From Halorubrum sp. DM2 (GTDB taxonomy: Archaea > Halobacteriota > Halobacteria > Halobacteriales > Haloferacaceae), in assembly GCF_901686465.1 (NCBI RefSeq), contig NZ_LR594487.1:3361773-3425772 (forward strand): a stretch of DNA of 64,000 nucleotides, read 5' to 3'. Positions 4,469 to 44,165 of the stretch are shown in pieces. Numbering within the stretch: position 1 is the stretch's first letter; each line of letters starts with the position of its first letter. The notes beneath the pieces are model-generated. The model was given only the letters and a program-made list of their open reading frames with translations. It had not been told where the DNA came from and did not search any database. Made by a program: the position numbers and the translations under genes.

Positions 4469-4485
4469 CTCCGGGCCGAACCGAG

Positions 4486-4621
4486 GCCCCGACCGAACCG
4501 AGGCCCCGACCGAACCGAGACTCGAACCGAACCGAGACTCGAACCGAACCGAGACTCGAACCGAACCGAGACTCGAACCGAACCGAGACTCGAACCGAAC
4601 CGAGACTCGAACCGAACCGAG
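4486..4621 (+). repeat. 17-bp minisatellite, eight units
   Basis: There are two units of GCCCCGACCGAACCGAG (4486-4519), then six identical units of ACTCGAACCGAACCGAG (4520-4621), with no interruption. A partial unit precedes them at 4471-4485. The array begins just after the stop of the eIF2B-like gene and is followed by a T-rich CCTTTTCC. The unit contains a tandem CGAAC/CCGAA sub-repeat. A 17-bp unit without spacers rules out CRISPR. The identity of the six units suggests recent expansion and likely length variation among strains. Confidence 0.95.
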
Positions 4622-22614: not shown

Positions 22615-22776
22615 TCAGACTCGATCGAGCCGGGAGAGTCCGCGCCATATCGCGTCGACCAGTCGCGTTTCGGGATCGTTGTCGGGTCCGGGACCATCGC
22701 CGTCGGATCCCGTGTTTTCCCAGCCGCGGGCCAGCGCGTCCTCCAGCACCGCGAGCGAGTGGTTCTCGAAGTTGTT
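22615..22776 (-). pseudogene. 3' part of the DUF1028 gene cut off by the TnpB element
   Basis: A 53-residue tail beginning N-N-F-E-N-H-S-L-A-V-L-E-D and ending at the stop codon at 22615-22617. It continues in frame the DUF1028 protein that breaks off at 24183: joining 24183 directly to 22776 restores F-R-G-V-N-N-F-E-N-H without a stop. A start codon of its own (ATG at 22777-22779, inside the element) is formed by chance. It is not expected to be a functional gene alone. Confidence 0.8.
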
Positions 22777-22797
22777 CATAGCAATTCAAGCCGGAAA

Positions 22798-22817
22798 CCT
22801 ACGGCTTTAGCCGTGGG
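22798..22817 (+). repeat. Left-end subterminal hairpin of the IS element
   Basis: CCTACGGC-TTTA-GCCGTGGG forms an 8-bp stem (one G-T pair) with a TTTA loop, 21 nt inside the left end. Such imperfect subterminal hairpins are what TnpA recognises in IS200/IS605 elements. Confidence 0.7.
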
Positions 22818-22886
22818 AGGAAGCCGACGTGGTGGGAAACAGCCACCGAGAAACGACAGTTTGACTCCCCCACGCTACCGTAGTAC

Positions 22887-22899
22887 TTATAAATTTATA
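22887..22899 (+). promoter_or_regulatory. TATA-box region of tnpB
   Basis: TTATAAATTTATA contains two overlapping TATA-like boxes. The first lies 24-29 nt before the tnpB ATG, the normal haloarchaeal distance. The element thus carries its own promoter. Confidence 0.55.
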
Positions 22900-22915
22900 C
22901 CTACTTTTATGAAGT

Positions 22916-24130
22916 ATGGCGGAGGTGCGTCGCACGGTCGTCGTCAAACTCGACGTCGACGACAGCGACGCGACTCTCCTCCACGAAACCATCGAGGAGT
23001 ATCTGTGGGCGTGTAACTACGTCGTCCAAGACGCATGGCAGGACGACTACAAACCTACATCCAAGAACAAACTCCACGACCGGACGTACTCTGACGTGCG
23101 CGAACAGACGCGCCTCCAAGCGAATCTCGTTCAATCCGCACGCAACCGCGCCGCCGAAGCCATTAAAGGCGTTATCGCCCGCTGGCAGGACGGCAAGAAA
23201 GCGTCGCAACCGCACTTCACGACGCCTTCCGTCCGGTACGACAAACGAAGTGCGACGTTCCACGACGACCACGTCTCCCTCTCCACGGTGAGCGGACGTA
23301 TCGAAGCTGAATACGTCCTCCCGCCGGCGGGAGACAACCCACAAACGAAGTACCTCTGTAACGACGAGTACGAGGTCACGGATGCGACGCTTCAGTACCG
23401 CGACGCGACGGACACCTTTTTCCTCCACATCGGAACGAAGGCCGACGTGGAGTCCGAAATACCGGAGGAAGGCGACGCCGAGAACAGCACAGTCCTCGGC
23501 GTCGACCTCGGTATCGAACAGATCGCCGTCACGTCGACCGGACAGTTCTGGAGCGGCGGCTACCTCACCCACCGTCGTCAAGAGTACGAGCGCGTCAGTG
23601 GCGATCTACAGCGGACAGGTACGGAGTCAGCCCACCGAACGATCGAACGAATGGGGGACCGAGAGACGCGGTGGGTAGAGGATTACCTCCACCGTATCTC
23701 GAAAGCTATCGTCCAAGAAGCCGTCGCGCACGGGTGTGACCGGATAGCGTTCGAGGAGTTAACGGACATCCGCGACCGGATGCCGGGTGTAAAGAAGTTC
23801 CATGCGTGGGCGTTTCGACGCCTGTACGACTACGTGGCGTACAAGGCGGAAGCGGAAGGTATCGACACCACACAGGTAGACCCGGCGTACACGTCCAAGC
23901 GGTGTTCGAAGTGCGGGACGACGCTAGACGAGAACCGCCGGTCGCAAGCGAAGTTCTGTTGCCAGAAGTGCGGCTACGAGGTCAACGCAGATTACAACGC
24001 GGCGAAGAACATCGGATTTCGGCTACTCCGTGCGGAGCAAAAGTCTCCGCACGGAGGGGCGATCAGTCACCTCGCCCTCAAGTCGGGGACGCTGAACGTG
24101 AACGGCGGCTACTCGCCTGCCTCTGAATAG
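22916..24130 (+). CDS. tnpB: TnpB RNA-guided nuclease
   Basis: A 404-residue TnpB, the ancestor-type of Cas12 nucleases. Known family members use an omega RNA from the element's right end to cut DNA next to a transposon-adjacent motif. All three RuvC residues are present: Asp197 (G-V-D-L-G-I-E), Glu280/281 (A-F-E-E-L-T-D) and Asp359 (N-A-D-Y-N-A-A-K-N). The zinc finger has Cys330/Cys333 (C-S-K-C) and Cys349/Cys352 (C-Q-K-C). The protein is full length and therefore probably active. It sits alone in the element, with a strong TATA region upstream. Its 3' coding end overlaps the predicted guide RNA. Confidence 0.95.
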   Translation: MAEVRRTVVVKLDVDDSDATLLHETIEEYLWACNYVVQDAWQDDYKPTSKNKLHDRTYSDVREQTRLQANLVQSARNRAAEAIKGVIARWQDGKKASQPHFTTPSVRYDKRSATFHDDHVSLSTVSGRIEAEYVLPPAGDNPQTKYLCNDEYEVTDATLQYRDATDTFFLHIGTKADVESEIPEEGDAENSTVLGVDLGIEQIAVTSTGQFWSGGYLTHRRQEYERVSGDLQRTGTESAHRTIERMGDRETRWVEDYLHRISKAIVQEAVAHGCDRIAFEELTDIRDRMPGVKKFHAWAFRRLYDYVAYKAEAEGIDTTQVDPAYTSKRCSKCGTTLDENRRSQAKFCCQKCGYEVNADYNAAKNIGFRLLRAEQKSPHGGAISHLALKSGTLNVNGGYSPASE

Positions 24131-24182
24131 AGGCCAGAACGGGAGTCCACCGACAAGCACACCCCTTTAGGGGTGGGTTGGT
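24020..24182 (+). ncRNA. Predicted omega RNA (sense-overlapping RNA) of the TnpB element
   Basis: In related elements a non-coding RNA starts inside the 3' end of tnpB and ends at the right end of the element; in haloarchaea these are known as sense-overlapping transcripts. Here a perfect 12-bp hairpin (24026-24037 with 24045-24056, loop CAAAAGT) lies within the last 35 codons of tnpB, and the right-end hairpin is at 24160-24175. The 5' end is a guess. The guide would be the host sequence starting at 24183. Confidence 0.55.
24160..24175 (+). repeat. Right-end subterminal hairpin of the IS element
   Basis: CACCCC-TTTA-GGGGTG forms a 6-bp stem with the same TTTA loop as the left-end hairpin, seven bases before the inferred end of the element. 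Confidence 0.7.
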
Positions 24183-24980
24183 GACCCCGCGGAACGTCTC
24201 CAGCGCCTCGTGGGTCTCCTCGCCGAACTCGGCGGTGGGTTCCCCCGTGTAGAAGCCGAGGTCCGCGAGCGCCGACTCGACCGCGACGGCCGCCTCACCG
24301 GTCAGTTCCCGCGTCTCCTCGGGAGCCTCGCGTTCGAGAAGCGTCACGTCGTATATCTTGAACACGCGTTCCAACTCGTCTATCGGGCGCTCGTGGTCGT
24401 CGACGCGCACGTCGACCCAGCGGTCGTTTCTCCCGTCGTAGCCCCCCTCGGGCTTGGCGACGTACAGCGCCGCCGACTGCTCGCCGCGCCTGTCGCCGCC
24501 GGCCTCGTTGCCGGCGTGGAGCGCGGCGATGAGCCGCTCCGGGAGGCCGCCGTCGGTCTCCTCGAACGCCTCGGCCATCGCGTCGAGGGTGTCGACGTTC
24601 TCTAAGATGTTCCCCTGAACCGTGTAGTGGTCCCCCTGTCGGTCGCCGGCGTGGTCGTGGCACTCGTCCCCGGTGAACGCCGCGGGGTCGTCGTCCGGGT
24701 CGACGCCGACGACGCCCACCTGCCGGGAAGGGGCCTCGTCGTCGTCGACCGTGAGGCGGTCGATCGCCTCGGCCGGAGCGTGGCCCTCGCGGAGCAGGTC
24801 GAGTCCGTCGGGACCGTACGCGACGTTCGCGAAGCTCTGCGTGGCGACCGCGCCGGCGTCCGCGCTCACGAACGGGACGACGGCACCGACGCCGACGAAC
24901 TTCGACTGGACGGCGACGCCGACCGCGTCCGTCTCGGGGTCGCGGGCGGCGATCGAGAAGGTCGAGAGTCGAGGTGGCAT
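24183..24980 (-). pseudogene. 5' part of a DUF1028 Ntn-hydrolase-like gene, interrupted by the TnpB element
   Basis: It encodes 266 residues of a DUF1028 protein (start M-P-P-R-L-S-T-F-S-I-A-A-R-D, then N-I-L, T-Q-S-F-A-N and G-D-Q/H motifs of the Ntn-hydrolase-like family), followed by a putative peptidoglycan-binding-like C-terminal region (L-A-D-L-G-F-Y-T-G-E-P). The insertion breaks it at F-R-G-V. The residual frame continues 35 codons into the element before a stop at 24078. The missing 53 residues are at 22615-22776. The core domain is complete, so a truncated product might still fold. The ATG at 24978-24980 has a CTTTATGA box 27-35 nt upstream. Confidence 0.85.
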
Positions 24981-25061
24981 ACGGAAGCAAACGCGTGTCG
25001 CCGCGATCATAAAGCCGCCGTCCGCGTCACCGGGCCGGCGTCGAATAGCTACCCTTCGGCG

Positions 25062-43901: not shown

Positions 43902-44165
43902 CTGGGGCTTCGGAAGAGTTCGTGTCGATCCGCGATTTATAAACAAGAATAACACCGTACAGCCGAGCGGCTGGGGCTTCGGCGGTGTTCACCGTCGGTC
44001 CGTAGTCAACGGCTTATAAGTAATCGACTGGGGCTTCGGCGGTGTTCACCGTCGATCCGGAGTCAGCGGCCTATAAGTGAGCGGCTGGGGCATTGGTGGT
44101 CTTTACCATGGACACGTCGATCTCTTATAAATAGCGGACAGCAACACCACAATCTGACTTATAAA
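43902..44165 (+). repeat. Copy B tail: four CTGGGGCTTCGG units with TATA-like boxes
   Basis: Units start at 43902, 43971, 44028 and 44085, that is, spaced 69, 57 and 57 bp. Each has CTGGGGCTTCGG (CTGGGGCATTGG in the last) and a TATA-like box near its end: TTTATAAA (43936), CTTATAAG (44013), CTATAAG (44071), CTTATAAA (44124). Another CTTATAAA lies at 44158. Units two and three also contain CGGTG-TT-CACCG. No reading frame is plausible. No CRISPR features are present. Confidence 0.85.

Follow-up and report, generated by a model that had tools for sequence, protein, structure and literature searches.

How an insertion element that encodes no transposase comes to lie inside a host gene, and whether its one protein can keep it there, are questions raised by a locus of Halorubrum sp. 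DM2, whose genome consists of one contig of 3.45 Mb. In the window, by which we mean the whole stretch of 64,000 nucleotides analysed, a gene for a DUF1028 protein is interrupted by an element with tnpB and no tnpA. A TnpB-only element inside a DUF1028 gene is what an earlier, sequence-only reading had described, and this identification is borne out, with tnpB on the plus strand, opposite to the gene. Haloarchaeal tnpB genes outnumber tnpA genes, a puzzle raised in earlier work (PMC3119063), and the element is an ordinary example of a very common and abundant haloarchaeal kind. Elsewhere, the window holds 8.6 copies of a 17-bp unit, CCGAACCGAGACTCGAA, at 96% identity (4476-4621) and a tandem duplication of 57 bp (43966-44091; 2.2 copies, 86%). 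The interrupted locus comprises the following features, in positions of the window.

22780 to 24185, plus strand: complete TnpB-only element of the IS200/IS605 family (IS1341-type), delimited by empty-site orthologues, same-ended copies at other loci and GC content

22776 to 22779, plus strand: TCAT, the host target tetranucleotide and predicted TAM

24186 to 25010, minus strand: 5' part of the DUF1028 gene, 275 amino acids plus 35 read into the element (Pfam DUF1028 and PG_binding_2, open reading frame, orthologues)

22615 to 22779, minus strand: detached 3' portion of the interrupted gene, its last 54 codons, opening with the target-site ATG (orthologue C-termini)

The element is 1,406 bp long, with a GC content of 59% versus 70% in the flanks. 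Its ends were fixed by comparison with relatives in which the DUF1028 gene is uninterrupted, as the sequence-only reading had proposed. The empty-site set comprises 23 uninterrupted orthologues that span the insertion site, and the last 54 residues of the protein are kept in 23 of the 24 close orthologous loci, the exception (L060) being truncated before the site. Joining the flanks of 22780-24185 yields a single frame of 329 amino acids that reads FRGMNNFENH, and not a single base is missing or in excess. The same FRG-ATG-NNFENH joint is found in 21 of the 23 orthologues, which belong to the same genus; the ATG, a methionine codon of DUF1028, is the complement of the TCAT target. Insertion with duplication or deletion of the target was considered and rejected, the empty sites showing a seamless joint.

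Copies of the family at other loci tell the same story. TCAT precedes 22 of them, at about 20 distinct loci in several genera, and GGTGAC terminates all 27 aligned right ends, beyond which the sequences are unrelated between copies. TCAT is absent, and the left end lost or altered, in the copies L009/L078, L084, L087 and L138. A second locus, that of the G025/G020 copy, has an empty site in five relatives, in which TCAT is directly joined to the right flank; this register identifies TCAT as host sequence and GAC as part of the element. Querying with the joint of the L008 copy retrieved a clean empty site, whereas a 400-bp joint of the L080 copy retrieved none.

The sequence-only reading had drawn the boundaries at 22777 and 24182, so that the element would begin with CAT, the host would keep GAC and the joint would read F-R-G-V-N-N-F-E-N-H. 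This register also preserves the frame, and valine (GTC) does occur at the joint in two distant orthologues, L058 and L059, which carry TGAC where the others have TCAT. Against it, all closer orthologues have ATG, and the second-locus empty sites carry TCAT and never TGAC, which contradicts this register for the family; furthermore, members of the IS200/IS605 family enter 3' of a target that belongs to the host (PMC8612924, PMC3119063). We rejected it and hold it to be very improbable. Both proposed ends lie 3 bp too far to the left: the CAT on the left is part of the TCAT target of the host, and the element runs on through the GAC that follows 24182. The restored frame and the absence of host base loss stand, whereas the joint residue is methionine; the orthologues depart from the predicted junction in this residue only, owing to the shift in register. 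The TGAC at the L058 and L059 sites is identical to the last four bases of the element, and these two sites would be without the predicted TAM.

The insertion conforms to the IS1341-type of the IS200/IS605 family, whose members characteristically sit 3' of a short target in the host and cause neither duplication nor base loss. Like the haloarchaeal IS1341-type elements described previously, this one consists of tnpB alone with no linked tnpA, is present in low copy number, has near-terminal palindromes but no inverted terminal repeats and no target duplication, and is bordered by a conserved terminal oligonucleotide that represents the host target (PMC3119063). In that work, too, the conserved oligonucleotide of haloarchaeal elements was argued to be target rather than element. 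There is no categorical difference between them; here, two empty-site sets establish exactly where the element ends and that TCAT is its target. The insertion is clean and probably recent, as had been suggested, recency holding at the level of species, with one genome per species compared; among the species examined, just one has the insertion at DUF1028.

The interrupted gene itself is of unknown function (DUF1028), and our literature search on DUF1028 found no paper. The DUF1028 domain lies whole within the 275 residues of the 5' part, and the PG_binding_2 match covers 55 of the 74 profile positions and stops at the break. The severed 3' part has dN/dS values versus relatives mostly of 0.08-0.26, similar to the 5' part, although comparisons of 45-54 codons have little power; at one genome per species, its sequence gives no sign of decay.

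The only protein that the element encodes is the following.

22916 to 24130, plus strand: tnpB, 404 amino acids (Pfam, NCBIfam, alignment to Cas12f structures, conserved columns, dN/dS)

This protein matches Pfam OrfB_IS605 and Cas12f1-like_TNB and scores 194 bits against NCBIfam guided_TnpB (cut-off 100). The RuvC triad, earlier reported as complete, is indeed intact by alignment and conserved columns (D197, E280 and D359, the last within NADYN), and a zinc ribbon is formed by C330, C333, C349 and C352; OrfB_IS605, zinc ribbon and triad together agree with assignment to the IS1341-type. An AlphaFold model is of low confidence (mean pLDDT 59.6), with Cas12f and TnpB as its best Foldseek matches (TM about 0.4). 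Among family copies of tnpB, synonymous changes prevail (dN/dS 0.08-0.15; 0.08 to the nearest copy), which indicates purifying selection on the intact TnpB. It is the sole TnpB gene of the window; genome-wide, PF07282 has nine matches, one of them partial, and the element itself is single-copy. The NADYN motif at RuvC-III places the protein with the "derived" TnpBs of PMC10278001. In two Halorhabdus tnpB copies, a short palindrome (AGCCAGATTCC...GGAATCTGGCT) is located at the RuvC-III codons (L093:4109-4140, L118:856-890), where it would abolish this motif.

Beyond the protein, both ends of the element and the 3' portion of tnpB carry potential RNA or DNA structures.

22798 to 22817, plus strand: left-end hairpin CCTACGGC-TTTA-GCCGTGGG with one G.T wobble, at the same position in relatives

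24026 to 24056, plus strand: 12-bp hairpin in the 3' coding end of tnpB, 98% of cells paired in 27 sequences

24145 to 24185, plus strand: predicted 3' end of the omega-RNA, GUC(C)ACC (24145-24151) paired with the terminal GGUGAC (24180-24185) and enclosing the right-end hairpin

24158 to 24177, plus strand: right-end hairpin, 95% of cells paired, with compensatory changes at 6 of 8 pairs

Both TTTA-loop hairpins had been called intact; both are present, but neither is perfect, given the wobble on the left and an A.G mismatch on the right that is absent from most relatives. By comparison, both stems are perfect over 8 bp in the 96% identical copy from another species. Apart from this right-end mismatch, subterminal hairpins at both ends are as expected for the IS1341-type. 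Pairing was assessed in an alignment of 27 right ends against shuffled controls and slid registers: no shuffle reached any observed value, and slid registers paired at 44-54%. The 3' region also folds much better than its shuffles (z = -5.2). The terminal helix is invariant in 27 of 27 sequences, an invariance that is neutral as to pairing. The coding-end hairpin, which may be the 5' portion of the omega-RNA scaffold, shows so little variation that it contributes hardly any covariation evidence by itself. A structured RNA that extends up to the right end, judged from covariation and folding, and guides specific to each flank are the hallmarks of an OMEGA locus as far as sequence can reveal them, and the covarying right-end hairpin is what an omega-RNA would be expected to have.

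Omega-RNAs have been reported in haloarchaea, and, like these sotRNAs (PMC12558985; RF02656, RF02657), the RNA predicted here is in the sense orientation and covers the tnpB 3' end and the right end; unlike them, it is matched by no Rfam model, at the gathering threshold or at E up to 5, the two sotRNA families included. Several sequences in other genomes share parts of these ends. Upstream of tnpB in L083, L089 and L093, the left-end hairpin has about 75-80 bp inserted, which comprise two small hairpins and resemble the SMR elements, for which IS605-type palindromes of Haloquadratum are the reported targets (PMC3119063). Six non-coding sequences (L157-L159, L161, L162, L172) have GAGTCCACCGACAAG and the hairpin right end in common with the family but end in GCTGAC, and are PATE-like relatives that lack tnpB. 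In two genomes, a 51-bp stretch resembling the right end and omega-RNA adjoins sequence without recognisable TnpB or TnpA (L168:1750-2011, L169:1800-2059).

These data bear on whether the element is a fossil that moved once and is now immobile, with an inactive TnpB and a decaying copy. The lack of tnpA, the single copy in the genome and the mismatch in the right-end hairpin all fit such a state; however, tnpB is open with a full catalytic set, selection on it is purifying family-wide, including towards the nearest copy, and the RNA covaries. We regard a fossil as unlikely; nuclease activity, TAM use and mobility are predicted features of the element.

If TnpB is active, its specificity would be set by the sequence that adjoins the right end.

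24186 to 24205, plus strand: predicted omega-RNA guide CCCGCGGAACGTCTCCAGCG, from the DUF1028 sequence, directly after the right end

The sequence at this position varies between copies. At the empty orthologous site, it matches beside TCAT over 20 of 20 nucleotides in 7 species and 16 of 16 in 10, a match that partly reflects plain conservation of the DUF1028 coding sequence. The predicted target of TnpB is TCAT followed by CCCGCGGAACGTCTCC, and precise excision would be expected to leave GTTGTTCAT joined to CCCGCGG. In its own genome, the resident copy alone matches the guide with fewer than three mismatches, and there the match follows TGAC. Such a pattern would fit a TnpB that attacks the empty allele and leaves its own copy uncut. 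The TAM is read as TCAT from insertion sites, and our literature search found no paper that names a TCAT TAM. In Sulfolobus, the TAM of TnpB is identical to the target of the transposon, and there is no cleavage beside the element's own ending motif (PMC11043419). For ISDra2, TnpB cleaves the donor joint, and targeting of the empty allele has been proposed (PMC8612924). The element resembles ISDra2 TnpB/reRNA in its RuvC D-E-D, right-flank guide, a predicted TAM that coincides with the transposon target and the predicted targeting of the donor joint (PMC8612924), and the derived TnpBs in NADYN (RuvC-III NADXN) and in RNA structure that extends into the 3' end of the coding sequence (PMC10278001). 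It differs from ISDra2, which has tnpA and the TAM TTGAT (PMC8612924), in its predicted TCAT, which resembles the TCAC of AmaTnpB (PMC10278001).

Exaptation of TnpB is known in principle, and with a predicted guide that is antisense to DUF1028, the protein might have been domesticated at this site, for instance by serving as an RNA-guided DUF1028 regulator. Nevertheless, the insertion is found in one examined species only, the element retains its ends and TnpB its catalytic triad, and the DUF1028 gene is interrupted. We rejected domestication on these grounds and consider it hardly credible.

With no tnpA in any family copy examined, a Y1 TnpA that would mobilise the element through a single-strand circle would have to come from elsewhere. 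The TnpA near the L013/L086/L155 copy is part of an adjacent element, past the right end of that copy. The genome contains two intact Y1 TnpA genes elsewhere, in elements with different apparent ends; one of these has a 21-nt hairpin core in common with the left end of the element and is, on that account, no more than a candidate helper. A search of the genus for a TnpA-bearing element with matching ends returned just a generic hairpin core in common. Family copies nonetheless occupy different loci at 88-96% identity. The nearest (G039; 96%, at another locus in another species) has a tnpB dS of 0.145 versus a DUF1028 dS of 0.30 for the same genome pair; the lower value for tnpB points to horizontal movement. 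A clean IS1341-type insertion that needs TnpA in trans, as the sequence-only reading had also held for any movement of the element, is supported as the best reading.

We accordingly consider it highly probable that a TnpB-only IS200/IS605 element inserted 3' of TCAT, with TnpA in trans and with TnpB targeting the empty allele; the supply of TnpA, omega-RNA production, cleavage and homing are presumed steps. On this view, a Y1 TnpA acting in trans would have placed the element in the DUF1028 gene, 3' of TCAT, through single-strand "peel and paste" insertion that neither duplicated the target nor removed a base. TnpB is known to process its own mRNA into omega-RNA (PMC10278001), and here the omega-RNA would derive from the 3' end of the tnpB transcript, presumably be bound by TnpB and have its guide read from DUF1028 sequence past the right end. 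The complex would cut any DNA in which TCAT is followed by the guide sequence, that is, the empty allele after excision or on incoming DNA, and repair would copy the element back. The resident copy would be spared because its guide match is preceded by TGAC rather than TCAT. A bolder proposal, which we deem unlikely, is a tnpA-less homing drive across Halorubrum, in which TnpB would cut the empty allele whenever genetic material is exchanged, and the element would spread by repair alone; the guide is a conserved DUF1028 stretch, identical beside TCAT in at least 10 other species.

With exact ends and an ancestral empty site that retains the predicted TAM in 21 relatives, the locus offers a well-delimited natural test case. 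The guide is perfect at the empty site in many species, and the genus has cultivable members, so that this element could show whether TnpB alone maintains or spreads an element that lacks tnpA.
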